Positions 4,815 through 31,281 of a DNA stretch of 31,281 nt are shown here, in pieces. Origin of the DNA: Chrysochromulina tobinii (lineage: Eukaryota; Haptophyta; Prymnesiales; Chrysochromulinaceae); contig JWZX01002820.1 in the NCBI GenBank assembly GCA_001275005.1, forward strand, positions 1 to 31,281, given 5' to 3'. A model generated the notes under the pieces. It was not told where the DNA came from. It searched no databases and was given only the letters and a program-made list of their open reading frames with translations. The position numbers were made by a program, and so were the translations under genes. Every line of letters starts with the position of its first letter. The first letter of the stretch is position 1.

Positions 4815-7800
4815 ATGCCGAGAGCTCGGCTGCCGACCTCAACGTTGGTCGCCGCGCTGCTCGAGCAGAAGAACACCAAGAGGAGGATCCTGCGGATCCT
4901 GACGCACAAGTACCACGATCCAACGGAGCAGATCTCGCGCGATGCCTTCGCCGAGCTCGTCGCCAATGCCCTCGCCGAGGACTGCGCCTTTAGCCACGAC
5001 GAGCTGATCGCCGCCGCCCGAGACGTCTTTGACACCAAGATCTTGGCTTCAAAGACGCTCGCAGTGAGCCCCCGCGACTCGGTGAGCGCACGAGAGATCC
5101 TCTCCCTCTATCGCTTCGGGTTCACTGCGGCAGCGGGCCTGCCCGAGCCCATCGGGCTGCCGCAGAGCGTTAGCGTTCAGAGAATCGAGCTCGTGACGTC
5201 TCTGCGCGATGCGGCACGCATCTACGAGCGCGGAGGGCTGATGTCGCCGCGCATCGCACGCAGCCACGGCGATGCCGCCCTCTCTCCTAGCGCCGACGCG
5301 CCCTCTCCCCTCGCGCTCATCACGGCGCTGCCAACCGAAGCCGACGGCCTGGTTGGCCCTTACGATCGTAACGGCCTGGTTGGCCGTTACGATGGGCTCA
5401 ACGCGAAGACCAAAGTCGGCAGCGCCGAAGAGGAAGGCGGCGCGCCGGTCGACGGTGCGGCGGGGCGTCGCTCGCCGTCGGGCCCGCCCTCGACTGAGAC
5501 GCTGCTGCGGCTGGTCCAGGCGCGTCTGCGCACACAAGCCGCCCGGCTACGCGTGAAGCTCGAGAAGCTCTCAATCGACCGACACGGCGCGGCTCCCATC
5601 GACGAGATGATTCGAACCGTTCGGGAGATTGGATCTCGCGCGCACCCGCCGCTGCTGGTCGTGGGGGCGGCAGAGGCAGCGCTGCGTGAGCTCGCATGGA
5701 GCGTGGGCGATGGGCGCCGAGATGGGCGCGGGGCGGCAGAGGAGTGGGGCGAGCAGGACGCGGATGTGGGCGATGGTGACGAGGTGGAGCAAGGCGAGAA
5801 TGTGACGCTGACGGGTGGAGTGAAGAAGGAGGCAACTGACGATGAGGGGATGCGTGGCGAGGAGGACGGCAGCAGTGGTGGCGATGACGTCGGCGGCAAC
5901 GAGGCTCCGCAGCGGGTGCATTTGCTACCCTCGCTTCCTGATTTGGCAACGCGGCGGGTGCATGTTCGCCGTTTCGCCGCGGCGCTGTGGACAGTCCCCG
6001 GTCACCAACCGCCAAGCTTACCGCCGTTACCCGTGCCCAAGGGCGGTGCGATCACTTCTGGGAGCGCCGTGGTAAGCACTTGCATGCAGATCTCTTCTGG
6101 GATCGCCGGCCTCCGGCACAGCGCCAGCAGCCCGGCCGTCGCTAGCCTGCGGGCACCGGCCCGGGCCATTCGTCGGAAGTCGCTACCTAATTTGGCACTG
6201 CCATCACTACCTAATATGGAACAACCCTTTCCTCGGAAGCCGGAAGCCGCCGCCGCCGCCCAGGGCGGAGCAAGGAAGCCGATCACGCAATACGAGATCA
6301 TGATCGGCACCGCGAGTGGCAGACGGCACGGCGGCGGCGGCGGCTGGGGCGATGGCGGCGGCAGCGTCGTCGTCGTTGTTGGCGGCGGCGATGACGGTTG
6401 TCTTCCTCCGATGAAGACTCCGGGCTCCAGCACCGCGTCCTCCCTGACAAAACCCCGCGCTGCTGTCGATACATCCGCGCTGCCCAGCTTATCGCCCTCC
6501 TCCTCCGCCGCCGCCGTCGCCGCGGCCTCCCCGGGGCTCAACGCGTTTGGAAGCGTCACGCGTAGTGCGATGCCGAAGGCGACGCCCCTAGTAGGCGCCG
6601 ATGCAGCAGGCGAGGAGTTTCGTCAACCATGTGATGCGGATGTTGCAAGGAGGTCGAATGTGCGCCGTCACCTGCAGCAAGGCATCTCGTTAGCTGGGAG
6701 CAACGCGATGCTCCTCAAGCTTCGCACCAGGGTCCGCGAATGGTCATTGCATGCCGTCAGCCAGGTGCAGGTGCAGCAGGTGCAGCAGGTGCAGCAGGTG
6801 CAGCAGCGACAGCTGCAGCAAAACGCAGCAAAGCGCGCGGCAGACGCGCAGGCGGTCGGTCCTATAAGCGTGACCGCGTACTTGGATGAGGTCTTCCATC
6901 AGGTCGCCGGCGACGACGATCTTGCCGCCGAAGCCGCCGCCGATGCAGCGGCAGCCAAAGCAGCCGCCAAGACAGCCGCACGAAAAGCGGCGCGCGGCAG
7001 ACGGCCGGGGATCTTGGGAGATTTCGATCTGGACGAAGAGCCAGGTGCTCCGCCGATTGTCGACCAGGTGAGTGAGGCATGACCACTGACGACCACTGAT
7101 GGCCACTTAATGACCACTGATGACCACTGATGACCACTGATGACCACTGATGACCACTTGATGACCACTGATGATCACTGATGACCACTGATGACCACTG
7201 ACGACCACTGATGGCCACTTAATGACCACTGATGATCACCGACACACCGAGCCTCATTGATGACCCCATTGAGAGGCGTAACGATCAACGCTCTGCCGAT
7301 CGCCGAGCAGATCAAGAGGGCCCTGCAGCTGAACGCGACGAGAGTGATGGACCTGTTCCGAAGCTGGGATGAGAATGGCGACGGGCAGGTGTCATGCGCC
7401 GAGTTCCATCACGCGATGGCCGTCCTGGGACTCGAGGTGCCCGCAGAGAGCATCGACGAGCTGTTCGCCAGCTGGGATGCCGATGGCGGTGGCACGCTCG
7501 AGTTCTACGAGCTCTCCAAGATCCTGCGCGGCCCTGTCGCTGACCTCCCTACCAAGACAGCGCTCCCGGCCATCTCGGCCAAGGTACAGAAGACCTTCTC
7601 GCGCTTCGACGTGAATCACAACGGGTACCTCGAAATCCAGGAGCTGCGCAAGGCGCTCGAGCACCACGGCCTCGACTTAAGCACCGCCGAGGCCGGGCGC
7701 ATCCTGAGCGTGTACGACGACAAGCCCAACGGCAAGCTGGACCTGAGCGAGTTTGCGCAGGTCATCCACGACCTGAGCGCCACTGCTTCCAAGGTCAAGC

Positions 7801-9257
7801 TGACCTTCTCGCGCTTCGATGCAAATGACAGCGGGTACCTCGAAATCCAGGAGCTGCGCAAGGCGCTCGAGCACCACGGCCTCGACTTAAGCACTGCCGA
7901 GGCCGGACGAATCATGAGCGTGTACGACGGCAATCCCAACGGCAAGCTGGACCTGAGCGAGTTTGCGCAGGTCATTCATGACCTGAGCGCCTCCCTACTG
8001 CACCCTACTGTGCAGCCGACGGCCAGCAAGGGGGCCACCCCACCCCCGACGGAGATTAATCGCAAGGCGTACCAACGGGCGATGGCCGAATTTGGGATGG
8101 ATTTGGGCGCGGGCGAGGAAGGTGAGGCTGATGATGACCTCTGATGACCGCTGATGACCCCTGATGGCCGAATTTGGGATGGATTTGGGCGCTGGCGAGG
8201 AAGGTGAGGCTGATGATGACCACACTGATAATGACCCCTGATTGTTCCGTGGCTTGCATGCTGATTGAAGCTGATGGGCTCCCTCATCAGGCGAGGTCCT
8301 TTTCCAAGCCCTGGACGTCAAGGGGGAGGGTACGATCTCCATGAGTGATCTCCAGGCCGCGATCAAGTTCATCCTAGATCCACGGCACGAGACGGACCCG
8401 ACAGGTCTGCTTCCACTGATGACCGCTGATGACCGCTTATGGCCACTGATGACCACTGATGACCTCTGACGATCCTCGGCACGAGGCAGACCCGTCCGGT
8501 CTTCTTCCACAGCTTGACCTCGAGGCCATTGCCTGCTGATGACTGCATGATGACTGCATGCTGATTTCATGATGACTGCATGACGACTGAAAGCTGACTG
8601 CATGAGGATTGCCTCCCTGATCAGGTCTGCTCCGCGACTCGGCCTCGCTGCCCGCTGGCCTCCTTAAGCTCTTCCAAATCGAGCACCGGTCCACGCTGGC
8701 CAATCCCTCGCCGACTTCGGCCAAGACGAAGACCTCGGCCAAGAAATCGGCCAATCCCACCGAACAGCTCCGGGCATCCCTCGTGGCGAGGGGGGAACGG
8801 GTGGTGGGCCTGTTCCGGCGGTGGGATCTCAACGGCGATGGCATCATCTCGAAGGAGGAGGTGATCTGCAACATGATTGCGCCGGATTGCTCCACATCAT
8901 CAGAGGCGAATAGTTCTCATGAGAGGCTTCTTCCCATCCCCCCCCCCCTCACCCACCCCCTCCTTTTGGGCGCGGTGCGCACAGTTCCGGGCGGCTCTTC
9001 CCGAGCTCGGCCTGATCTCGATCTTGGTCGGCCAGGCGGACGATCTTTTTGATCAATTCGACACGGACAGCTCGGGCGAAATCTCCTTCCACGAGCTCCA
9101 TGCGATGCTTCGCAAGCCACCCCCCGCCGTGCGCCAGCCGCCGGCCCGTCGCGTGCAGATTGCCATCCTCGAAATCGAGCCGCTTCGCGAGCAGACGCGA
9201 CGCAAGCTGCTCGAGATGAACATGCGCGCGACCATGCAGGACAACCTGCTGACCTGA
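4815..9257 (+). CDS. Large protein with about nine EF-hands after a disordered N-terminal half
   Basis: Predicted calcium-binding protein of 1228 aa. Exons: 4815-7067, 7311-8121, 8291-8404, 8625-8860, 8985-9257; phases agree. Start is the first in-frame ATG (MPRARLPTST). The first 750 residues are mostly low-complexity, with a folded-looking stretch near the start (LVAALLEQKNTKRRILRILT) and a VQQ repeat at 6764-6806. EF loops follow: DENGDGQVSCAEF, DADGGGTLEFYEL, DVNHNGYLEIQEL, DDKPNGKLDLSEF, DANDSGYLEIQEL, DGNPNGKLDLSEF, DVKGEGTISMSDL, DLNGDGIISKEEF, DTDSSGEISFHEL. Hands three-four and five-six are a recent 210-bp tandem copy. The loops beginning DDKPNGK and DGNPNGK deviate from canonical ligand spacing and may bind calcium weakly. 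There is no kinase or membrane segment, so this is not a CDPK. The role is unknown beyond calcium sensing. Confidence 0.85.
5344..5397 (+). repeat. 27-bp tandem duplication in coding sequence
   Basis: Two copies of ACGGCCTGGTTGGCC-(C/G)TTACGAT encode GLVGPYD and GLVGRYD in the EF-hand protein. The unit is in frame. Confidence 0.8.
6050..6107 (-). mobile_element. Inverted type II introner-like core inside an exon, flanked by 19-bp direct repeat
   Basis: GATCACTTCTGGGAGCGCC at 6050-6068 and GATCTCTTCTGGGATCGCC at 6089-6107 (two mismatches) flank about 20 bp. Reverse-complemented, that spacer and the adjoining bases read TGCATGCAAGTGCTTACC, matching the core of the intron at 23988-24072. The offset is 39 bp, so the insertion is in frame and appears translated. 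Confidence 0.65.
6764..6806 (+). repeat. GTGCAGCAG microsatellite coding VQQ repeats
   Basis: About four 9-bp units GTGCAGCAG in frame, encoding VQVQQVQQVQQVQQ in the EF-hand protein. Confidence 0.85.
7068..7310 (+). other. EF-hand gene intron 1, TGATGACCAC repeats
   Basis: Donor CAG|GTGAGTGA, acceptor CGCCGAGCAG before ATCAAG, phase 0. The interior is a run of about fifteen 10-11-bp units of TGATGACCAC type. Splicing joins PPIVDQ to IKRALQLNATRVMDLFRSWD. Confidence 0.7.
7593..7994 (+). repeat. 210-bp tandem duplication of an EF-hand pair
   Basis: 7593-7784 and 7803-7994 are nearly identical, with differences concentrated in the loop codons. Each copy encodes two EF-hands. Confidence 0.9.
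8122..8290 (+). other. EF-hand gene intron 2, CTCATCAG type with 82-bp-offset duplication
   Basis: Donor G|GTGAGG, acceptor CCCTCATCAG, next exon GCGAGG, phase 1. 8163-8221 repeats 8081-8139, so exon end plus donor occur twice. Ends in TGCATGCTGATTG repeats. Confidence 0.8.
8405..8624 (+). other. EF-hand gene intron 3, flanked by GTCTGCTyC duplication
   Basis: Intron starts GTCTGCTTCC; next exon starts GTCTGCTCCG after CCCTGATCAG. Phase 1. It contains a diverged copy of the upstream exon end (GATCCTCGGCACGAGG ...) near 8470-8510, followed by TGACTGCATGA repeats. Confidence 0.8.
8861..8984 (+). other. EF-hand gene intron 4
   Basis: GTGATCTG ... GTGCGCACAG, phase 0. Splicing gives ISKEEFRAALPELGL, a natural EF-hand continuation. 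There is a C-rich tract before the acceptor. It lacks the repeat cores. Confidence 0.8.
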
Positions 9258-15094: not shown

Positions 15095-16815
15095 ATGGAC
15101 GACCTCGCTGTGGTGACCGCGCTGCAGGAGATGTCGAGTTCGCCTCATCGCATGATGGCGAAGCCCGTGTCCAGCAGGTGCTTCGATCTCAACAACCAGC
15201 GAGTGCGCGATTCGCTCTCGCGCATCGCGCGTCCCGCTGCCGAGAGCGCAGGGACGGAGTCACACATGACGACCTCAGCATCGGTCGACTCGAATGCGGT
15301 CTCCGAGACGGACACGAGCGACATATGGGCCGCTCCGACCGCTCAGCAGCACGACGGATCCGGCCGTCGCGGAGCCGCCGCCCCGAGCACGCGCGGCGGC
15401 TCTGTGGACTCTGGGGCCGGTGGAGCCGTGGCTACTGCCCTCGTCACGGTGCCCAGCCCAGGGAAGCTGCAGCGGTCCAGCGCCGAGCGCAAGCGCGGCC
15501 GGCAACAGGGTCGACGGGCCGGCAAGGCTGCAGAGGGCGCCTCGACCGTGACGGGCAGCGATGCCGGAGAGGACGAGAGCGGCGGCAGCGGTGACGAGCG
15601 GGAGAGGAAGCAGGCAGCGACGCTCGCAGCGGCGGTGGCCGCATCTCACGCGCTGATTGCTGCCGGTGGCGATGGTGGCGCCATGGCCGCGGCTGGCAAG
15701 GGCCTCGACGCATCGGAAGCTTTGGCAGAGGTGGACTGCGAATCAGACCACGGGACGGGAGAGAGTGGTGAAGACGGCAACGAGAGCACCTCGGCGGCAG
15801 CCAAGGCGCCGGGCGACGCGAAGGGGAAGCCGACGCGCCGCTCGTCGCAGCCTTGGACCGTTGAGGAAGACACAGCGCTGCACCACGCAGTCCTGCGCCT
15901 CGGTGCGAAGCGCTGGTCCGCTATCGCTACGGAGGTCAGTGCCACTCCGATTGCCGCTGATTGCCACCTGGTTCCCTCTGATTGCCGCTGATTGCCACCT
16001 GGTTCCCTCTGATTGCCGCTGATTGCCACCTGGTTCCCTCTGATTGCCGCTATCGCTACGGAGGTCAGTGCCACTGAGTGCCACTGATGACACCTGACGG
16101 AGCGATCGAATCACGCGCTGTGCTGGGCAGGTCGTCGGCCGCTCTGGCAAGCAGTGCCGTCTGCGATGGTGCAAACTTAATTGGACCCGGCCGTTCGTGA
16201 TTGCAAGCTGATTGGAAACTGATTGGAAACTGATTGGATGCTGATTATGCTCTGAGGACCTTCCTCATCAGGTGCAACCAACTTGACCCAGCCATCCGGC
16301 ACGACGCGTGGACAGAGCAAGAGGATACAATCATCTTACGAGCGTATGCGACGCTCGGATCTCGCTGGACGGAGATCGCGAAGCTCATGCCCGGGCGCAC
16401 CGACAATTCGATCAAGAACCGTTGGAACGGTACTGATGACCACTGATGACCTCTGATGACCACTGATGACCTCTGATGACCACCCACAATTCGATCAAGA
16501 ACCGTTGGAACGGTTCCCTCTTTCGTACCTGTGGGGAACCGGCACCCCGATCAAGGTGCTCACCACGGCGCCACGCTCCCCACAGGTACCCTCTTTCGCA
16601 AGCTGAGCACGGACCTGACCAGTGTGGGGAACCGCATCCCGATCAAAGCCGCCGCGCTCTGCCTCGCCGCCGACGTGGCCAACGACGCGTTTGCCGACGC
16701 GGGCGCGCTCAGCACGGCGCTGGTCCTGAGCCGCGGAGGAGATTCAGCGAGCTCCTCGACGTCCTTGGCGGACTCGGCAGAAATTGCTATCGCGGAGGTC
16801 GCGGCGCTCGAGTAG
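15095..16815 (+). CDS. R2R3-type Myb DNA-binding protein
   Basis: Predicted nuclear transcription factor. Exons 15095-15934, 16131-16168, 16272-16429, 16586-16815; phases 0, 2, 1. The N-terminal 250 residues are disordered, acidic and Ala-rich. Repeat one: [51 protein letters not shown]. Repeat two: [50 protein letters not shown]. The spaced tryptophans are in place, and the join NRWNGTLFRKL matches the usual Myb NHWNSTxRRK ending. Start is the first in-frame ATG ([10 protein letters not shown]). The C-terminal 60 residues are Ala/Ser-rich, and the stop lies inside a tandem repeat. Three introns within about 400 bp of Myb-domain coding are all of the duplicated-flank kind. Confidence 0.88.
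15935..16130 (+). other. Myb intron 1, with second copy of exon end
   Basis: Donor GAG|GTCAGTGCC, acceptor GCTGGGCAG, next exon GTCGTCGG. CCGCTATCGCTACGGAGGTC at about 15918 recurs at about 16047 (offset 129), so exon end and donor are present twice. The interior has three near-identical TGATTGCCACCTGGTTCCCTC units. Confidence 0.85.
16169..16271 (+). other. Myb intron 2, flanked by GTGCAA duplication
   Basis: Intron begins GTGCAAACTTAATTGGACCC; next exon begins GTGCAACCAACTTGACCCAG, a diverged duplication of about 20 bp. Ends TTCCTCATCAG with TGATTGGAAAC repeats. Confidence 0.85.
16430..16585 (+). other. Myb intron 3, composite of both introner-like cores and a copy of the exon junction
   Basis: Starts GTACTGATGACC; next exon starts GTACCCTC. 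16486-16514 repeats the exon end 16403-16431 exactly (29 bp) and runs straight into a shortened copy of the next exon's start, i.e. a copy of the uninterrupted gene. The last 30 bp (16556-16585) are the type II core GTGCTCACCACGGCGCC ... CCCCACAG. Confidence 0.8.
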
Positions 16816-17525: not shown

Positions 17526-18568
17526 ATGCACGGCCTCGACGATGCGATCGCGCTGCCAGGCTGCAAGCGCCTCCTCATCGACGGCGGCAGCAACGACGGC
17601 GACAGCGTGCGCGCCTTCATATCCGGCCACTTCTTCGGTTGCGCGCTCAACGGGCCGGCGCGACTGTATTCTACGTCGTGGCAACGGCTACCAGTGCGTG
17701 AGCGGCGGCGGCGGATGGAACCGCTCTTATCGCCCGCAGAGTGGTGCGTCCGGAGCTTCGAGGCGAACGCGGCGCTGCTTCCGGCTTTGCGCGAGCAGGA
17801 GGCTGAGCATCGGCGAGCGGGCTACGACGTGCGCTTCATCGACGGGGCGCTCTCCAACGTGACGGCGCCACAGGCACCGCGCACGATCACGACGTTTGCG
17901 CGCAACAAGTGGGGCAGCATGGCGACGTATTTGCCATTCGCTGACATCTTTCCCAACTCGAACCCTCCCGTGCTCTCCACGCGCGTCGAGCGCGGTCCCA
18001 GCTTCGCCGTCGAGCAGATTCTCGAGCGCGCGGTGGCTCTCAACTCATCGAGCGTGCTCGCGCTGCGGCTCGACGTCGAGGGGGCTGAGGAGTGGTTGAT
18101 GGAGTCGCTCTCGCGCCGTCCTGAGCTCGTGTGCGCGCTCTCGTACCTCTTCGTCGAGTTCCACCACCTACCTGGGCAGCGTGCGAATCTGACGCGTTGG
18201 GGCTTGCCCGAGGATCTGTACGAGATCGTCAAGGGGCGCGTGCATACGGCGATGGAGGAGCGGCCCGGGTGCAAGCTACAGGTCTACTGGCGCTCGTTTT
18301 GGGCCGCGTGCGGCGACAAGCAGCGCTTCGAGTGGCTGAGCGCGCCGCAGGTGACCATTGATGACCATCGATTGCCACATAGACTGCCATTGAAAGGCCA
18401 CCGATTGCTAAGTGCCACTCGAAGCCAGCCTTTGATTTGCCTCCCCCTCATCTTCAGGTGACCGATCGGACGGTTGAGGAGCAGGCCGCCCTTGACAAGG
18501 AGCGCGCGAACAGGGGCCGACGCAGCCGCGGCCGGCGTGGCAAGCGGAAGCTACTCACAGAGATGTAG
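17526..18568 (+). CDS. FkbM-type SAM-dependent methyltransferase
   Basis: Predicted 311-aa methyltransferase of the FkbM (Methyltransf_21) family, which usually O-methylates sugars or polyketides. Exons 17526-18350 and 18458-18568, phase 0. SAM-fold marks: RLLIDGGSNDGDSVRAFISG (glycine-rich loop), CVRSFEANAALLPALREQEA (acidic end of strand two), VRFIDGALSN, and LALRLDVEGAEEWLMESLSR, the family's DxEGxE signature. The C-terminus after the intron is very basic (RANRGRRSRGRRGKRKLL). The ATG at 17526 begins close to the SAM fold, so an upstream targeting exon could be missing. Substrate unknown; a second FkbM-type gene lies at 26405-27663 but is not a close copy. Confidence 0.8.
18351..18457 (+). 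other. FkbM-type gene intron, flanked by GTGACC duplication
   Basis: Starts GTGACCATTGATGACC; next exon starts GTGACCGATCGG. Ends CCCCTCATCTTCAG. Phase 0. Interior has TGCCAT/GATTGC repeats. Confidence 0.85.
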
Positions 18569-18811: not shown

Positions 18812-21800
18812 ATGCCGAGCCGATCGCAACGCTTGACCATCCTGCTCTTGAGCTGGCTCGTCACCAGCACTGCTCAGATCCCTTCTCTGCCACCTCCTTC
18901 GCTGCCACCACCCCCTCAGTTGCCCCCCTCGCCGCCACCGCCCTCGCCCTCGCCGCCGCCGCCATCGTTACCGCCACCATCACCTCCACCACCGTCGCCA
19001 TCACCGCCGCCACCATCGCCCTCGCCACCGCCGCCGTCGGTGCCGCCATCCCCGCCGCAGCCACCTAGAACTCCGCCGCCGCCCTCGCGGCCGCCGCCGC
19101 CGCCGCCAAAGCCGCCCGCTGTGCCGCCCTATCCGCCACCGGTGGACTTTGCCTATTTCTGCCCTCCGGACACGATCGATGTCGGTTACAACACGTCCCG
19201 GCTCGGCTACGAACCTTCGAGCGGCTTCGTGCGCGCGCTGCACAACTCGACGCGTGACGGACGGATGGTCGGACTCCCGCCTGCGATGCTGCCCGTCACG
19301 GCGGCTCCCACCCATTACGGAGGGCTCGTGCCCCCTGTAAGCAACACGTCGTTTGCGAACCTGGCGCCCTACCTGGCGCCCAGTCTCACCTGCGAGTGGG
19401 GCAACATTGGCCTTCGCGTCAACTTGCATCTGCCTGATGATCGGTGAAGGCCACCGATGGCCTCCGATTGCGTCTGATTGCGTCTGATTGCCCTCCGATG
19501 GCGTCTGATTTCGTCTGATGGCGTCTGATGGCGTCTGATTGCGTCTGATTGCGTCTGATTGCCCTCCGATGGCGTCTGATTGCGTCTGATTGCGTCTGAT
19601 TGCCCTCCGGTGGCCTCCGACTGGCCTCCGATTGCCACTGACTCTCATTGACCCGTACTTTGGCACCAACCAGGCTGTACGAGTTGTACGGGCGCTTGAT
19701 CTGCGTCCCGTTGGTGACGGCGGACGGCGTACTGCGTATGCTCACCCTACAAATGCAGCCTGTCTCGACGACGACGCTGATGGTGCGCCACTGCTGATGA
19801 TCACTGATGGCACCACTGCTGATGATCACTGATGGCGCTTGCTTGCATCCTGAGTGCTTCGGATGGTTGGCCTCATCAGGTGCGAACTGCCTTTTGCGAG
19901 CGCTGGCTGCCGCCGCCTATGGCGCCGCCGCCCTCGCCACCGCCCGAGCTGCGCCCCACGCGCTATCTCGCCATTGAGCTCCACTTCAGCCCGGGCGTTG
20001 TGCCGATCGAGTCGGCCAACCTGACGACCGCGCTCGCAACGGCGCTCCAAGTGCGCTCCTGACGGCCTCTGAGTGCCTTTTCGAGTGCCACGGAGACTGC
20101 CACTGATCGATCGCGCTCGCGACGGCGCCCCAGTCGGTCGTGCTCACGAGATTACGCGGCGTGTCACCCCCGACGTTCAACTCGACGGTGGACGTGAGCC
20201 TCTCGCAGCGCATCGGCGGCCAGACGCTCCTCTCGGGGCGTGTGGGGACTATGCCACCCGCGCCGTGGCCCTGGCTCACGCATGCTCTCCTCTATGCACT
20301 GCCCGGGTGCGTGGACAGCAGCACAAACTCGCAGGATTTCGTCGGGTACGTGCCCCTCTGCGTCGTGCGCACGCTCAGCCTCACACTGCTTGCCGCCAGG
20401 CCGCCGCCGCCGCCGCCGCCGAGCGCGGGCCGCCGCCGTGCCTCTGATGAGGGAGGTCATCAGCATGCGATGCGCATGCAATCAGCGCAACTGCCGGCGA
20501 GCCGCCGCCGTGCCTCCGTCGCTTTCCAGGAGGCCGCCGGCACTGGGGAATCAATTGCAATTGAGGACGCGAGTGCCATTGAGGGAATTGGGGCGGCAAT
20601 TAAGGAATCGAGTGCAATTAAGGAATCGAGTGCAATTAAGGAATCGAGTGCAATTAAGGAATCGAGTGCAATTAAGGAATCGAGTGCAATTGAGGACGCG
20701 ACTGCACTTGAGAGGATTTGGGCGGCAATCAAGGGGATTGGGGCGGCGTCCTCTATCCACGAGCGACCGGGCCGCCGCCTGCAGTCCGCCTTCGCACCTT
20801 TCCCGCCGCCCTCGCGCCCGCCACCCTCACCGCCCGTCCCGCCGTGCTCGCCCCCGCCGCGCGCCCCGCCCCCCCTACCGGCTGCTCCGTTCCTCTACCC
20901 TCGTCGCGAGATGATCAGCGCCTTTGACATCACTCTGCCCTTCGCGTTCGTCACCAACAATCCCCTCACCTGGCGTCGCTCGGTGTGAATCCCCCCCCAC
21001 CCACCTGGCGTCGCTCGGTGTGAATCACACCGAGGCGGAGCGCGCTTATGTATGCTGTCCGAACGACCCTGCGCTGAATGCATGCTGATTGCCTCCGTCA
21101 TCAGGTGAATCATACCAGGGGGCGCATGCTCGCCACGACGCTTCGCTCCACCCTCACCACCCTATCAGCCAACTCGGTGGGTGGCTGGCAGGCGCTCACC
21201 ACGGCGCTGACAGTGGCGGCTGGTCCAAACAGTTCGCTCCAATTTGGGCAGCGGCTTCAGGTGCTGATTGCATGCGGATTGCATGCGGATTGCATGCGGA
21301 TTGCATGCGGATTGCATGCGGATTGCATGCTGATTGCAGGCTGATTGCATGCTGATTGCATGCTGATGGCCTCATCAGGTCCCTATCGAAAGCCGAGCAC
21401 GCGAGGTGAGCATGCCTAGCGTGCAGACGGTCGGTCAGATTACCGTTGCCCTCTTCCAAAACGAGGAAGTCTACCGGCAAGAGGTGGCGCAGGCCGAGGC
21501 GGGCTCGCTGCCCGCTGCTTCGATTGGCGTCACCACGGCGGACCTCAATGGAATCTATGCGGCCATGGCGGCCGCGCTCTCCAATACCAGTGCACTCGAC
21601 CTCGCCCTCACTGCCGCCGCCTCCAACGTCACCCGGGTGACCCTCAATAGCACAGCGCTTACGGTGGCGCAAGTGACCGAGACATCGCTGTTTGAGCCTC
21701 CAATGGCGCCGCCGCCCTCGTCGCCGCCGCCCTCGCAGCCGCCCTCGCCGCCGCCCAAGCCGCCACCCAAGCCGCCGCCCTTGCCGCCGCCGCCGCGGCC

Positions 21801-22497: not shown

Positions 22498-25400
22498 ATG
22501 CCTGATGTGGGATCCGCTCATGATCTATGGGCCTTTTTCGCATTGATATCGTCAGACGAGATCAAGGGGACAGACGTAACGAAGTGCGACGCACGCGTGC
22601 GCCCAATTGAGCTTCACATCAACGTGTCGGCACCGCGCCCGACATGGCGCCTTCGCTTTCACACGATGGAGGCGCTGCTCACGGGCGAGGCGCTGCTCGG
22701 CCTGCTACGCCGACGAGGCGATGAGCTCAACGGGGTGTGCGAGCGTTGCGTCGCTGCCACAGGTGCACATCTACGCCGCCCACTGCTCGACCGGCTGCAC
22801 GGTCGCAGCACAACGTGGCCTGAAGCGCCAAAGGCTCTGCGGGTGGAAGTCGCTCGCCTCTGGACGCAGATTGGTCTCGATATTCACACGTACGCCAAGG
22901 GCCTTGCCGAGGGCCAGCGTGCCGCCAACGGCAGCCTCGACGATTACAGCGGCTACCTCACTCGCGTAGTGCTCGCACGCGTGACGCTCGAGGACACGAC
23001 GGACCCCTCGGCACTGGCCATGGAAGTCGTGCGGCCGTGGCAACACAGCCAGCTTCTCACCGCAGCGGACGCTCCGACGCTCGTGAGCGCCGGTGACGTC
23101 GCACGGCTCGAGGCGGACGGTTTCGTGCTGCTGCGCACGCGCCTGGACCCGCGGCTCGCGCGTGAGTTTGCGCTCCTGCACCGTCACGGCGTCATCTCCC
23201 CGACCAACTCTTCGTGCAACCCGGGCGCACACGGCGTGATGCTGCGCTGCGGCACCGCCGAGGAGCGTGAGCAGTTTGTACGCCAGGGCACGCCTGCACT
23301 GCTCGGGGCCATCGAGTTGCTTCGCGCCATGCCTCAGCAGCTGCTTCGGGCGGGCTACCGGTACCGGCCGCCGCCGCCATCGGACAGCCATCAGCATGCG
23401 AGGCCATTGGTAACGGCGGCGGCGGTATCGGCGGGGAGCGCTGCGCCGTCGACCGCCAAAGACGGCGCGGGCGCCGCCTTGCGCCTGCAGGTGCCACAAT
23501 ACTTTCCACAAGTCCCGCCTGGCTGAATACATGATGATTGCATGCTGATTGCATGATGATTGCACATCGATGACGTCCCTCATCAGGTGCCGCACACCGT
23601 ACTCGTGTCCGCCTACCCACCGGGCGACGCACGCTACCAACGGCACCTCGACTGCTATGGCGACGACAACGCGCGCGCTCTCACGCTGATCTTGTATGAT
23701 TGCAGGCTGATTGCATGCTGATTGCATGCTGATTGCGCGCGCTCACGCTGATCTTGTATGATTGCAGGCTGATTGCATGCTGATTGCGCGCTCTCACGCT
23801 GATCTTGTATGCATGATGATTGCATGCTGATGGTGGCGTGATGAGGACGGTTGGGAAATTGGGATGTGTCTCGCCATTGCATGCTGAGTGCATGCTGATT
23901 GTGCCCCTCATCAGGTATGCGAATGAGGACGATTGGGATGTGTCTCGGAATGGCGGGGCGCTCGTCGCGCGCGTGGGCGGCGAGGAGGTCGTGGTTACGC
24001 CTCGAAGAGGCCGGCGCGTGGACGCTTGCATGCAAGTGCTCACCACGGCGCCCCGCTCCCCTTTCCCCACAGGTCGTGGTTACGCCTCGAGGAGGCCAGA
24101 TGGTTATCTTTGACAGCAAGAGGATCTGGCATGAGGTGAGGCCTGATTGCATGCTGATTGCAAGCTGATTGGATTGCATGCTGATTGGATTGCATGCTGA
24201 TGATCTCCCTCATCAGGTGAGGCCCTCGAGTCGCCTTCGCTTCGCATTGACGCTGTGGGTGTATGGCGTCGAGCCGCTGAGCAAGATGGCGGGTGAGGAG
24301 GCAGCCAGCCAGGCAGAGGTGGGGGGGGTGGCCAGCCAGGCAGAGGTGGGGGTGGCTAAGCAGGCAGAAGTGGGGGTGGCTAGGCAGGCAGAGGAAGTAG
24401 ACGCAGTGGTCCATACTACTATGAGGGCGTCGATGGGCGTCGTGGCGGGCGGTCTTTTGCACCTCGAGCGCGATGGTCGTGGGCTCTACCGGTGGGTGAT
24501 GCACGGCGGCGCCCACGACGGCGCTCATGACGGCGCCCAGGACGGCGCCCACGAAGGCGCCCAAGACGTGGCGGTGCCGTTGCAGGAGAGCCCCCCCTGG
24601 ATTGGTGCCGACACTTGGTACTAGCACTGTGATTGCATGCTGATTGATTCCCTCATCAGGAGAGCCCCCCCTGGATTGGTGCCGACACTTGGTACTAGCA
24701 CTGTGATTGCATGCTGATTGAATCCCTCATCAGAAGCCATCGATGTCCTCAGGTACTCCTTCGAGCAAACACTATGCTGATTGCATGCTGATTGACTCCC
24801 TCATCAGAAATCATCGATGTCCTCAGGTACTCCTTCGAGCATTCGAATGGCTTCTGGAACGCTCGCACAGGAGTCATGTGCGACAGTGCACCCGATGGGC
24901 TTCATCCCGACGGGCGGACGCGAAGGAGGTGAGTGCATGCTGATTGCATGATGAGTGCATGATGAGTGCATGCTGAGTGCCTGCTGATTGCCTTCTGATT
25001 GCATGCTGATGATCTCCCTAATCAGGTCCGCGGCGATCACGGGACCATGGGCCGTTCCTTTTGGAGCACAGCCACCACCAAAGCTGCAAGGGCTCGCGCC
25101 GCCGCCACTGCCGTCCGACCGGTCGATGATTGTGCCCGAGGTCGAGTGCTTTGGCCTAGGGGACAGCTCGGTGCCCGGCCCGGTCTTCACAGCTCCGCAC
25201 TCAATCTGCGTGGCGCGCGACGGGTGCGCCGACCACCTGCCCTCTGAGGACCTCGGATGACCTCGGATGACCTCTGAGGACCTCGCCCAAACTTGTGGCA
25301 GGTGCGACGACCACCTACCCGAAGACTTTACAAGCTTCCTCGCGCGCAGCTGGGCATACGTGGCCGCTGGAGATTCGATCACGTGGGGCAGAGAAGCGCA

Positions 25401-26246
25401 CACTCTGGCCGATGCGCTCGCTGTGAAGGGGAGCGGTGTGAACGGGCAGCCGGTGCCCGTGCCTGGCGCACGCGACCCGAGCTATCTGCATGCCGGGGAG
25501 GAGCATGCATGGGTCGAAGCATTGCGCGGCCTCCTTCCAAATAAGGATGAAGGCCTTCAGTCGAGGGTTGCTGGGCGCCGTCCCGAGCTCTTGCATGCGA
25601 GCAGGCTCCACTTCGACCTGCACGGCAAGCGCGACACCCTCGGGGAGGGGGACTGCGACATCGGGGTGGGCGCCTGCCGCGCTGCCTTGGGGGACGCGGC
25701 CGCCGAGGCGCTCGCCACGACGCTCTCTCGCGCGTTGCAAGCGGCGCTGCCAGACGGTTTCATCGTCGATCCAAATCCGAGGCTGCAGGTTTGCATGCTG
25801 ATTGCATGCTGATTGCATGCTGATTGCATCCTGATTGCATCCAAATCCGAGGCTGCAGGTTTGCATGCTGATTGCATGCTGATTGCATGCTGATTGCATG
25901 CTGATTGCATGCTGACTGCATGCTGATTGCATGCTGATTGCATACTGATTGCATGCTGATTGCATGCTGATTGCATCCAAATCCGAGGCTGCAGGGTTGC
26001 TTTCGTAGCGTGCCTCGGCACACATTGACGCAGTCGGCCATGTCTCTAGGCTTTGTGCCCGTGCAGCTCGAACTAGGCTATCGGTTACGCCGCACGCTGG
26101 CTCGCGACTGGGAGCTCTGCCGTCGGCTGGGCGACGCTTTGGGAGCGAGCGCGCCCTCCTGCCTCGAGGCAGTCCAACTGCAGTGCGAAGCACGCCGGGA
26201 CGCCGTACTAGCTGGGTCGCAGTATAGAGCGGTTGTAGAGCGGTGA
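22498..26246 (+). CDS. PHD/EGLN-type prolyl hydroxylase joined to N-formylglutamate-amidohydrolase-like domain
   Basis: Predicted 891-aa protein. Exons 22498-23490, 23587-23693, 23915-23987, 24073-24135, 24217-24617, 24827-24928, 25026-25223, 25302-25788, 25995-26246; every phase agrees. After a non-descript N-terminus, exons 1-5 carry a 2OG-Fe(II) oxygenase like HIF prolyl hydroxylases: VARLEADGFVLLR, iron ligands HxD in RYQRHLDCYGDD, ALTLILYANEDDWD, GGQMVIFDSKRIWHEV with the distal His, and SRLRFALTLW with the 2OG Arg. Repeats follow (SQAEVGVA; HDGA/QDGA). Exons 7-9 resemble N-formylglutamate amidohydrolases: VFTAPHSICVARDG, SRLHFDLHG, CDIGVGACRAALG, VPVQLELGYRLRRTL. The hydroxylase call is strong, the amidohydrolase call tentative. 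A split into two genes near 24900-25030 cannot be excluded. Confidence 0.78.
23491..23586 (+). other. Prolyl-hydroxylase intron 1, CTCATCAG type
   Basis: Starts GTGCCACAATAC; next exon starts GTGCCGCACACC. Ends GTCCCTCATCAG with TGATTGCATGC repeats. Phase 0. Confidence 0.9.
23694..23914 (+). other. Prolyl-hydroxylase intron 2, nested copies of both flanking exons
   Basis: Starts GTATGATTGCAG; next exon GTATGCGAATG. The exon end CTCACGCTGATCTTGTAT (23680-23697) recurs at 23742-23759 and 23793-23810. A diverged copy of the next exon start lies at about 23840-23877. Ends CCCCTCATCAG. Phase 2; splicing gives LTLILYANEDDWD. Confidence 0.9.
23988..24072 (+). other. Prolyl-hydroxylase intron 3, type II core with 25-bp flank duplication
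   Basis: GTCGTGGTTACGCCTCGA plus seven more bases starts both the intron (23988-24012) and the next exon (24073-24097), with one mismatch. The core TTGCATGCAAGTGCTCACC starts at 24026 and the intron ends CTTTCCCCACAG. Phase 0. Confidence 0.88.
24136..24216 (+). other. Prolyl-hydroxylase intron 4, GTGAGGCC duplication
   Basis: 81 bp. GTGAGGCC starts both the intron and the next exon. Ends ATCTCCCTCATCAG with four TGATTG-type units. Splicing gives RIWHEVRPSSRLRFALTLW. Confidence 0.93.
24618..24826 (+). other. Prolyl-hydroxylase intron 5, 74-bp unit array
   Basis: Starts GTACTAGC; next exon GTACTCC. 24586-24659 (exon end plus intron to CATCAG) is copied at 24660-24733 with one mismatch; a third 74-bp unit (24734-24807) carries a copy of the downstream exon start. 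Each ends CCCTCATCAG. Phase 2; gives ADTWYSFEHSNGFW. Confidence 0.8.
24929..25025 (+). other. Prolyl-hydroxylase intron 6
   Basis: GTGAGTGCATGCTGATTG ... CTCCCTAATCAG, phase 2. Seven to eight 11-bp units. Flank identity is GT only. Confidence 0.75.
25224..25301 (+). other. Prolyl-hydroxylase intron 7, 19-bp flank duplication
   Basis: GTGCG(C/A)CGACCACCT(G/A)CCC starts both the intron (25224-25242) and the next exon (25302-25320). 78 bp, with GGACCTCGGATGACCTC repeats, ending CTTGTGGCAG. Phase 2. Confidence 0.85.
25789..25994 (+). other. Prolyl-hydroxylase intron 8, three copies of exon end
   Basis: ATCCAAATCCGAGGCTGCAG at 25769, 25839 and 25975 (offsets 70 and 136). Between copies lie runs of TGATTGCATGC. 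The last copy supplies the acceptor GCTGCAG. Intron length 206 equals the outer offset. Phase 0. Confidence 0.85.
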
Positions 26247-27835: not shown

Positions 27836-29478
27836 ATGGGGGACATTGTCGATGGCAAACCCGAGACTACGGTTGCGGTATCTGCATCAAAGTCACCGAC
27901 GAGCTTCTCCGACAAGATCGAGGTTCTGAACGAGAAGGTTGCGGGCCACGAGAAGGAAATCGACAAGATCGAGGTTCTGAACGAGAAGGTTGCGGGCCAC
28001 GAGAATGAAATCAAGATTGTCCTGCAGCGCCTCGACGCTCTCGAGGCCGCCGCGGCCAAGACTGCCGAGGCTGAACGCCTCCGGCTGATCGCCTCCGAGC
28101 CATCGGAGTGCCTCAAAAGTATCGGCATCCGAACCTGGGAGGAAGCTAGCAAAGTCTTGACGGTCACATGCTTTTGCTTCACCGCCAATACGATTCTGTT
28201 GCTGGGGCGGAACATCGGCGCGACCATGCTGTTGACAGGCCTCAGTGCCGACGCGCTGCCATATGTCATGGTGCTGGTGGGAGCATTCATTCTTGTGATC
28301 ATGCCCCTCACCGCGTACCTCGTGTCGCAGTCGTCCTCCAACACCGTGCTGACGGGAATGACCTTTGCCATGATCGGCATCCTGACAGGCTTCTTATTCA
28401 TGTTCCAAACGGGCGTCGCCGAGGAGTACCCGACGATCGTGTACCCCATGTTCTTCGTCGTCGAGGAGGTGGTCGACTCGGTACTCATGGTCCTCTTTTG
28501 GCAGATCGGCATGCTGTGCTTCACAAAGGACGAGGCCAAGCGCCTCATCGGCATCGTCAACATGGGTGCTGCACTGGCAAACCTGGCGAATGGTGTGACC
28601 GTCGCCGTCCTCATCCACTACTTCAGCGCCTTTGCCATCCTGCCGGCCCAGATGGTGCTGCTGCTCTTGCAGCTCATTCCTAACTTCATCTGCCGCCGCT
28701 GGATCCCCGATACGGAGAGCAAGAAAGAAGAGAAGAAGTCGAGCGGCCCCGTGGTCGAGAAGAAGTGTTGCGACGCCGACGCGTGGTACATGAACTCGTT
28801 CACCCAGCTGATCGGCGTGTGGCAGTTCATCACAGTGCTCATCTTCTCGACCATCGAGTTCCAATACAACTCGACGCTCGCCAATTACCTCGACGCCAAC
28901 GGCATCGCCCAAGTCACGGCGAATCTCGCCTCGGTGGCGAGCGTCGGCCAGTCATTCGTCAACCTTCTGATCACTCCTTTTCTGCTCCAGGTTGCCGGGA
29001 CGTGGGCCGCGCTGCTGGTGACCCCGATCGCGTACGTGGCGGGCGAGTTTGGCATCATGTCGGACCAGACGGTTCGGATGGTCTTCATCTGCCGCTCGAT
29101 GGACTTCATCTTCCGCTACACCGTCTCGGACAACACGAAGCAGATCCTCTACAAATCGGTCCCGCCTCATCAGCTGATCGACGCGCGCGCGTTTACTGAT
29201 GGCTCGATCAAGAAGCTCGCCCCCATGCTCCTCGGTGGCATCCTGATCGTCGTACAGGGCGTCACTGGTCTCGGGGCGTACGAGCTTGTCTTCCCCATGG
29301 CGGTCTTCGGCGTCGGTGCCTCGGGAGGCCTGATCCCCCTCGTGCTGTACCTTGCCAAAGTGAGCGAGGCGCAGCCTTACCCCCCGCAGAGATGACCTCT
29401 GATTTGTGCCTCTGATTGCATGCTGATGGCCTCCCTCATCAGGTGAGCGAGGCGCAGCCTAACCCCGAACTTCTGTAG
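27836..29478 (+). CDS. NTT (ATP/ADP translocase)-like multi-pass membrane transporter
   Basis: Predicted 519-aa carrier. Exons 27836-29359 and 29443-29478, phase 0. Start is the first ATG (MGDIVDGKPET) after the divergent promoter. Residues 25-75 form a coiled coil with a perfect internal repeat (DKIEVLNEKVAGHE twice). About ten to twelve hydrophobic helices follow, e.g. TVTCFCFTANTILLLGRNIG, LPYVMVLVGAFILVIMPLTA, MTFAMIGILTGFLFMF. Motifs resembling the nucleotide-transporter/TLC superfamily: DEAKRLIGIVNMGAALANL, ADALPYVMVLVG, and VSDNTKQILYKSVPPHQLID. Members exchange ATP/ADP or related metabolites, often in plastid or parasite membranes. There is no obvious plastid transit peptide here. Substrate and membrane are unassigned; a more general MFS relative is possible. 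Confidence 0.75.
27911..28012 (+). repeat. 51-bp tandem duplication in coding sequence
   Basis: Two copies starting GACAAGATCGAGGTTCTGAA, differing at one base near the end (AAG versus AAT). Encodes the doubled 17-residue coiled-coil unit of the transporter. Confidence 0.92.
29360..29442 (+). other. Transporter gene intron, 24-bp flank duplication
   Basis: 83 bp. GTGAGCGAGGCGCAGCCT then (T/A)ACCCC starts both intron (29360-29383) and next exon (29443-29466). Ends GGCCTCCCTCATCAG. Read-through gives VSEAQPYPPQR and stop; splicing gives VSEAQPNPELL and stop, so the protein ends almost alike either way. Confidence 0.85.
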
Positions 29479-30290: not shown

Positions 30291-31281
30291 ATGCCATCGT
30301 CGATAAAGCTCAACGCCGAGTACCGTCCGCCAGAGCGTGCGCTCAAGCCCTCACGGCCGCCGGCGGCCGATGCTTTTTCCGCAATCGTCGCCGCCGCAGA
30401 GATGTTCGACTCACTCGCGGAGTCCTGCATCGGGACTCGCAACCGCTTCCTGGAGCACGCACGGTCACCGACGACGGGTTCGGCCAAGAAGCAGGCCCCC
30501 GTCTGGCTCGAGGAGATGCACTTGAGCAAGGCGCGGGAGCTCGAGCACGTGATGACGACGATCGAGCAGCTCGAGGCGGCCCTCGGGCAGCGGCAGCAGT
30601 GGCTAGCGATGCGCGGAGTCGAGGAGCTCCAGGATGAGCCCGTCGTCGGCGGGCTGCGCCTCCGCTCACGCGTGAGTGCCTCGCCGGTCGACGGCTGGCG
30701 GCCGACGGAGAGCTCACGTGTGCGCGTGGCGACGCGCGTGGAGGAGCGGCTGTTTAACGCTCACCTGGCGGCGGAGGAGGAGGCGGCTCGCGTTCGTGCA
30801 GCGCACCCGCCGCCCGCACGGCGCAAGCCGCGTGCGCTGTCGGCGGTTGAGGAGATCAACTCGGCCGTGGACGCGAGTGAGGCGGCGACGGCGGGCGCGG
30901 CGGGCGCCGCTGCGGCAGAGAAGGAGGCCGCGGCAGCGTATGAAGCTGTGATGCGGGATGCTGCCCTGGTGGCGGCGGCCAGGGCGGCCACACGCGGCGC
31001 CTCACGTGGGTCAGCACAGCCTCCATACACTGCCTTGCATGCAGGTGCTCACCACGGCGCCTCACGTGGGTTGCCACAGCCTCCATACACTGCCGGCGCG
31101 GAATTTGAGGATGAGTTCGACGAGTACGACGACGAGTACTACGACGAGATCGAATCTCCCTTTGAGCTCAGCTCGATCTCGTTCGACGACGCGCCGTCGC
31201 GGGCGCTCTCCACCCTAACGGCTCTCTCGGCCCTCGGGAAGGACGTGTCACCGCCGGCGAGGGAGGCGGCGCGGGGGGCGC
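30291..31281 (+). CDS. Coiled-coil, Ala-rich protein with acidic Tyr/Asp segment, 3' end off window
   Basis: Open frame of 330 codons from ATG 30291 (MPSSIKLNAEYRPPERALKP) to the right edge with no stop. I do not recognise a family. An early helical segment (DAFSAIVAAAEMFDSLAESC) and a second (LSKARELEHVMTTIEQLEAA) are followed by RRKPRALSAVEEINSAVDAS, an Ala/Glu coiled coil, and then a strongly acidic stretch (EFEDEFDEYDDEYYDEIESP). A 60-bp in-frame duplication with a type II core lies at 30996-31094. Codon use matches neighbouring genes, and GC-ending codons dominate. Cytoskeletal or scaffold function is possible but unsupported. Confidence 0.7.
   Translation, partial: MPSSIKLNAEYRPPERALKPSRPPAADAFSAIVAAAEMFDSLAESCIGTRNRFLEHARSPTTGSAKKQAPVWLEEMHLSKARELEHVMTTIEQLEAALGQRQQWLAMRGVEELQDEPVVGGLRLRSRVSASPVDGWRPTESSRVRVATRVEERLFNAHLAAEEEAARVRAAHPPPARRKPRALSAVEEINSAVDASEAATAGAAGAAAAEKEAAAAYEAVMRDAALVAAARAATRGASRGSAQPPYTALHAGAHHGASRGLPQPPYTAGAEFEDEFDEYDDEYYDEIESPFELSSISFDDAPSRALSTLTALSALGKDVSPPAREAARGA
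30996..31094 (+). mobile_element. Type II introner-like core between 39-bp direct repeats, in frame
   Basis: 30996-31034 and 31056-31094 are near-identical (GGCGCCTCACGTGGG ... CCATACACTGCC, few mismatches). The 21-bp spacer at 31035-31055 matches the core of the intron at 23988-24072 (TTGCATGCAGGTGCTCACC). Offset 60 bp keeps the frame. I find no convincing splice pair that removes exactly one copy. Confidence 0.7.

Follow-up and report, generated by a model that had tools for sequence, protein, structure and literature searches.

Introners are known in Micromonas, Aureococcus, Symbiodinium and Chrysochromulina (Gozashti et al. 2022, PMC9860276), and the duplications reported earlier for them measure 3–9 bp (4 bp in Symbiodinium and Chrysochromulina, 8 bp in Aureococcus; PMC9860276). 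We analyzed a 31,281-nt stretch of the Chrysochromulina tobinii genome (contig JWZX01002820.1, the whole of which we call the window), in which many young introns begin with a copy of the start of the next exon. As with introners, many similar introns occupy differing positions, one splice site being carried by the insert and the other supplied by duplication of the target. This likeness is drawn from copy counts, and the intron status of each single copy is predicted. Unlike the 3–9 bp of introners, the duplications here span 9–46 bp and vary within a family, and the inserts carry pieces of parental exon. Judged from sequence, these introns are recent gains of introner type: 3′-end copies of older introns, each lying next to a duplicated target from which it takes its donor.

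Other described systems share parts of this pattern. The introns of Daphnia ascribed to staggered breaks have exon repeats of 4–12 bp (PMC4202315); as here, the exon direct repeat stands at the opposite intron end and is variable in length, but our repeats exceed these in length, and recurrent intron families are the source of the inserted DNA. Rogers and Bendich (2025, PMC11782384) reported 213 introns with direct repeats of 4–30 bp (mean 11.4) at or near their borders, read as traces of insertion at breaks; long repeats alone are therefore no novelty. Their introns are diverse, and the parts of that survey drawn on here do not describe recurrent families within one genome with traced parents. 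In intron transposition, or spliceosomal retrohoming, the transposed intron brings donor, acceptor and branch point along (reviewed in PMC3443670). Here too a new intron copies another intron, but it lacks the 5′ part of its parent and draws its donor from the target, which has been duplicated. The introners of Amoebophrya likewise have direct repeats at their intron borders; unlike ours, these are of 3–5 nt and come with inverted repeats of 8–20 nt, in largely non-canonical introns (PMC7789003). Thousands of novel introns are said to defy seven proposed mechanisms (PMC3443670). A search of the open-licence full-text literature found no introner family with duplications this long and this spread, and the combination of recurrent families, 9–46 bp duplications and traceable parents was not seen there.

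Exon repeats at intron starts

The window is contig C1662 of a 53.15-Mb assembly of 2253 contigs, and its G+C content is 58–72% per kilobase. The sample comprised the window, 20 contig-head stretches of 10 kb (L009–L028), and small targeted stretches. The contig heads came from contigs numbered 1 to 210, chosen by number and independently of the element. An earlier note on this DNA had quoted seven pairs of repeats, with one copy at the start of an intron and the other at the start of the next exon. A letter-by-letter check found all seven in place, with AG before the second copy in each, and an eighth pair at 23491/23587. They belong to the following features, given with the number of matching positions and with the two insert families (1 and 2) that are described below.

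8405..8624, + strand: intron with the repeat GTCTGCT (8405/8625, 7/7); within it, the end of the exon upstream is copied over 40 columns (8377/8471, score 22)
16169..16271, + strand: intron with a family-1 end; 6-bp repeat GTGCAA (16169/16272, 6/6)
18351..18457, + strand: intron; 6-bp repeat GTGACC (18351/18458, 6/6)
23491..23586, + strand: intron 1 of a prolyl-hydroxylase-like gene; array insert ending CCCTCATCAG; target repeat GTGCCACA/GTGCCGCA (23491/23587, 7/8)
23694..23914, + strand: intron 2; complex, with TGATTGCATGC units and nested copies both of the end of the exon upstream and of the start of the exon downstream; ends CCCTCATCAG
23988..24072, + strand: intron 3, family-2 insert; 25-bp target repeat (23988/24073, 24/25)
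24016..24072, + strand: the part of intron 3 that is common to an intron on contig C421; GCGTGGACGC followed by TTGCATGCAAGTGCTCACCACGGCG..CCCCACAG; 59/60 to locus L002, including GTC after the AG
24136..24216, + strand: intron 4, family-1 insert; 8-bp target repeat (24136/24217, 8/8)
25224..25301, + strand: intron with a 19-bp target repeat (25224/25302, 17/19); insert ends TGTGGCAG
29360..29442, + strand: family-1 intron; 24-bp target repeat (29360/29443, 23/24)

Pairs of 6–8 bp are individually weak, and the long pairs are not. The repeats were tested by aligning the 45 bp after each AG to the 350 bp before it, for all non-identical CCTCATCAG ends with enough flank (n = 108; window and L002–L068); as a control the flank was swapped for that of another locus (n = 518). 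A score of at least 10 was reached by 64 of the 108 ends at their own locus, vs 16 of the 518 swapped controls, and a score of at least 15 by 52 vs 3. Random exchange of flanks, which the earlier note had named as a possible source of equal matches, thus does not reproduce them. A reading of the repeats as chance matches or an assembly artefact could point to the weakness of the 6–8 bp repeats and to the unselected loci treated next, where clear repeats are in the minority. Against it stand the controls, the point changes by which long copies differ, and protein homologs that have the segment only once; we consider its probability close to negligible.

That most introns start in this way, as the earlier note held, is true of young copies but not of introns at large. 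Detection varied with the choice of locus. Among loci not picked for the element, a score of at least 10 was reached at four of the 15 window loci and at four of the 14 from contig heads (at least 15 in only one of these 14), giving 8/29 when pooled, compared with 4/102 for swapped and 1/29 for reversed flanks. The rate was 15/17 among loci found by similarity to the window (swap 5/70) and 41/62 among those found by an exact 19-mer of family 1 (swap 17/306). The exon repeats are real and mark young copies, and they are not found in most introns of a random sample. A same-locus control taken 60 bp downstream also scored (5/29, 6/17 and 16/60 in the three groups), probably owing to neighbouring elements and tandem units. 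Scans for repeats without regard to any motif, over 231 kb, did not single out AG/GT and were dominated by tandem arrays; the left-maximal rule used in one of them loses cases in which the exon already ends in G.

Removal of 23491–23586, 23694–23914, 23988–24072 and 24136–24216 leaves one open frame, for an EGLN-type prolyl hydroxylase. Taking out intron 1 preserves the frame, with homologs continuous over the junction, and taking out intron 2 yields LILYANEDDWD. The spliced protein aligns across all four junctions with solved EGLN structures and has no doubled stretch; three paralogs from the same genome that lack these introns align likewise, again with no doubled segment, as do 17 of 20 relatives. 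P0001, P0018 and P0020 fail to align across the junction region; the end of P0001 resembles read-through of intron 1, and small insertions proper to the relatives occur close to junction 3. In a second gene (L029), the spliced asparaginase has two extra residues near the junction relative to its best matches among solved asparaginases, and is free of the 7-residue doubling expected from an unspliced repeat. At the protein level, these two genes bear out the proposal that a single copy of the repeat is ancestral. Intron-less DNA alleles did not turn up: of 14 empty sites that were joined, the four searched in the own genome matched only their own loci. From frame and homology we infer that the introns are removed from transcripts; splicing would then restore the old reading frame, with the left exon copy at the start of the intron.

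Two insert families and their traced parents

Family-1 inserts are arrays of 10–11 bp units (TGATTGCATGC, ACTGATGACC and similar) that terminate in CCTCCCTCATCAG. Most contain CTGAT, which we take to be a branch-point-like sequence. The 19-mer TGATTGCCTCCCTCATCAG has 879 exact copies in the genome (438+441), against none for the reversed pattern, and in 590 of these copies GT comes next. Removing from the 108 rows 34 with scores below 9, 10 tandem units and 6 that were mostly array left 58 events, in 36 of which (from 28 loci) the repeat began at offset 0 after the AG. These 36 repeats start with GT in 25 cases (GTGCG in 7, GTACG in 7), with GC in 3 and with neither in 8. They measure 9–46 bp (median 20), and the two copies are on average 97% identical. 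In five of them (L058+684, L057+248, window 24659, L054-419, L055-419) the right copy is followed by array, forming tandem units; without these the range is 9–43 bp and the median again 20. At the right-hand end of the target repeat, the 36 events showed no clear motif that might mark an endonuclease site. Of the 38 arrays for which the coding strand could be called, 37 lie in sense to it (67 were uncallable and 10 too short), as judged by a codon model trained on longest open frames rather than verified genes. Possible GC donors, where GC starts the repeat or the exon after the AG, were noted at L054, L050, L009, L020 and window 8290.

Family 2 consists of (TT)GCATGCAAGTGCTCACCACGGCGCC, a C/T-rich tract, and then CCCCACAG. 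Its 17-mer core has 668 exact copies (334+334), and the reversed-pattern control again gave 0. Among 27 loci with an acceptor-like end, 13 have a target repeat above the 99% control level, and 7 of these exceed the highest of 515 controls; the repeat is at offset 0 in 11 of the 13, and GT follows the AG in 11. Family-2 repeats measure 21–42 bp. The median is 34, vs 20 in family 1 (p ~0.001), a difference that is indicative only, as the family-2 list (n = 15) was compiled by hand; it excludes L085, L076 and other borderline repeats, and also window 16556, whose repeat is 23 bp at offset 37 or, if a deletion is allowed for by eye, ~64 bp. For five of 33 cores an acceptor-like end is lacking within 45 bases, and a second core follows one of the five; a sixth core was set aside because the edge of the locus cut it. 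The core GCATGCAAGTGCTCACCACGGCGCC or part of it was noted without an acceptor-like end at L077, L079, L093 and L007, perhaps in exons. The palindrome GCATGC is common to the two otherwise unrelated families (window 24016–24072 and the family-1 arrays). L089 and L101 are similar loci with the same family-2 intron and target repeat but diverged inserts, a pair that should be useful for dating.

These counts agree with the earlier note in placing the donor GT within the duplicated target and the AG within the insert, and with its view that the length of the duplication varies, unlike that left by a transposase with a fixed cut. Cut-and-paste DNA transposons, as in classic introners, would account for high-copy families at many positions and for a donor borrowed from the target duplication (PMC9860276). 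They should leave duplications of fixed length, whereas ours range over 9–46 bp and differ between families, and copies hold pieces of parental exon. A terminal inverted repeat was not seen by eye in family 2, and in family 1 it would amount by eye to CTGAT/ATCAG at most. We regard this origin as very unlikely.

In four inserts, part of the exon repeat of another locus is joined to the tail of that locus's intron, so that these four can be paired with a parent. In the first pair, window intron 3 and the C421 intron (L002) have 59 of 60 bases in common; GCGTGGACGC is the end of C421's own exon repeat and is absent downstream in the window exon. In the second, the C19 intron has 24 nt of C395 exon before the C395 intron tail, with identities of 61/62 and 58/58. 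In the third, the C107 intron has GAACTCC of C1396 exon before an identical 58-nt tail. In the fourth, the C2049 intron has GAGATGGCATGC of a C994-type repeat, and CTCGTGGCTC (10 nt; L100/L102) is common at the left joint; the core is identical, and the C/T tract before the AG has diverged. The exact parent of this last intron is less sure, since the exon resembles what we take to be a protein repeat motif. Identity in pairs 1–3 runs to the AG and 3–6 bases past it; the bases common after the AG in the pairs are GTC, GTACGG, GTG and GT. All four children end at an AG, without the parental donor. At left joints, microhomology to the family sequence was seen by eye as TCGA (L097), CCTA (L103), CCTTG (L078) and GCA (L002). 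Parents were sought for eleven inserts, seven being represented only by fragments of 27–38 bases; one of the eleven, L076, led to a subfamily in which ~30 bases upstream of the core are common to several loci.

Repeat and insert often recur together as tandem units, and units of ~60–75 bp are present in the window. They and related features of the window are as follows.

16398..16514, + strand: (ACTGATGACC)n insert with a 34-column flanking repeat (score 31); without a CATCAG end
20444..20497, − strand: family-1 element antisense to an open frame; 19-bp repeat, spacing 72 in frame; CATCAG end on its own strand
24583..24733, + strand: tandem unit of a 44-bp exon piece and a 30-bp family-1 element; period 74, two copies
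24734..24841, + strand: 30-bp repeat CATCGATGTCCTCAGGTACTCCTTCGAGCA around a 40-bp insert; by eye it appears to lie over an older acceptor/exon boundary
25787..25994, + strand: intron region with a TGATTGCATGC array insert; donor and acceptor both seemingly in the repeated target (..GGCTGCAG/G..), by eye
31001..31094, + strand: family-2 core with a flanking exon repeat of 15 bp if exact, or of ~40 bp by eye if mismatches are allowed; spacing 60

The antisense element adds 72 bases to the open frame. Array inserts with repeats and without a CATCAG end were seen by eye both at 16398–16514 and at L031, and some introns seem by eye to take their acceptor from the repeat (L009). The tandem units, together with introns whose two splice sites both seem to come from the repeat, would suit plain tandem duplication of an AGGT-containing exon segment. 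That process is contradicted for the two families, in whose measured events the exon copy is limited to the first 9–46 bp of the intron and the remainder is a family found elsewhere. As a general origin we hold it improbable; it may account for secondary expansions. Two further tandem arrays were noted in the window: at 7592–7991, two 210-bp copies (93% matches) within an EF-hand protein gene, and at 20547–20696, an 18-bp array encoding in-frame KESSAI repeats in a proline-rich protein gene.

Possible routes of intron copying

The earlier note proposed filling of staggered double-strand breaks, on the Daphnia model. Variable exon repeats fit that proposal, but their lengths exceed the 4–12 bp of Daphnia (PMC4202315), and the filler is not arbitrary, coming as it does from at least two high-copy families with four traced sources. 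High-copy families and traceable source introns argue for propagation of introns rather than gap filling alone. The route that we favour, at about an even chance, is that a staggered break is repaired by copying from an existing intron. Offset nicks in an exon would open the break. The right-hand end (top strand GT..) would pair by a few bases with the AG/GT boundary of an existing intron, and copying would proceed leftward for ~30–90 nt, taking in the branch-point-like CTGAT or CTCAC. The copy would then be joined to the filled-in left end, often via microhomology. Products that splice exactly would survive, and such selection would explain the AG/GT boundary. Repair of this kind would explain the variable duplications, the microhomology at some joints, and the inserts with other ends; array-only inserts and the five family-2 cores without an acceptor-like end fit copying from any part of an intron.

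Several points weigh against copying in break repair, a route that is proposed from sequence. Matches of 2–3 nt after the AG barely exceed the donor consensus, and only GTACGG is notable. The left joints of pairs 1 and 2 were without clean microhomology. A parent with exon provenance was found for only 3 of the 11 queried inserts, the fourth pair having come from another query's matches, and unselected loci reached the repeat threshold in only 8 of 29 cases. The antisense copy at 20444–20497 is not under splicing selection in that gene, yet it has the CATCAG end, which fits a physical end of an RNA better than DNA repair.

That last point leads to the main rival, target-primed reverse transcription of intron RNA, resembling spliceosomal retrohoming. 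A nick just before GT would prime copying from the 3′ OH of the excised intron, and an early stop would leave a 5′-truncated copy and a variable duplication. Such a route would account for the fact that offset-0 copies of both families, whose ends are unrelated, stop at the AG, for the variable duplications, for the end of the antisense copy, and for 5′ ends that lie inside the parent's target repeat, short of the parental donor, in all four pairs. The 26 RVT_1 matches in the genome, one of them at an inspected locus with reverse transcriptase plus RNase H, also favour it. Two of these reverse transcriptase loci were inspected: one is Ty3-like, and the other, with RNase H, has no matching tail in the 246 bp after the frame; neither of the two has an end that matches. 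Further points against an RNA template are the array-only inserts, the family-2 cores that lack the AG end, and the reach of family-2 copies ~15 nt upstream of the branch-like CTCAC, with no stop seen at the lariat branch. On balance we hold this route possible but doubtful. As a tentative extension of it, the priming of excised intron RNA at its 3′ end (AG) into exon DNA, with 5′ truncation and long variable duplications, would make a natural analogue of spliceosomal retrohoming. Of the inspected loci, L069 (C2236:12001-20000) holds a Ty3-type retrotransposon open reading frame with a chromodomain, and L070 (C1050:1-6000) a long open reading frame with reverse transcriptase and RNase H; tandem repeats were found at neither.

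Three variants of copying from RNA were rejected or set aside. Reverse splicing of a whole intron, with its own donor and without target duplication, conflicts with the duplicated target and with the missing parental donor part in four of four pairs. A stop at the lariat branch as the 5′ limit conflicts with family-2 copies that pass CTCAC, in the pairs even into parental exon pieces. An antisense RNA resembling a short interspersed nuclear element, with a (GCATGCAATCA)n tail, was considered since it would make truncated copies of the array-only inserts; it is not favoured, as parental exon sequence lies on the GCATGC side, although a read-through transcript could mimic this.

The origin of introns is an old open question. 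Here, through the scrap of parental exon that an offspring intron carries, parent and offspring can be paired, and pairing makes the direction of copying, the copied length, the chemistry of the joints and the choice of target measurable. The length of the target duplication separates intron copying of this kind from transposase-driven introners.

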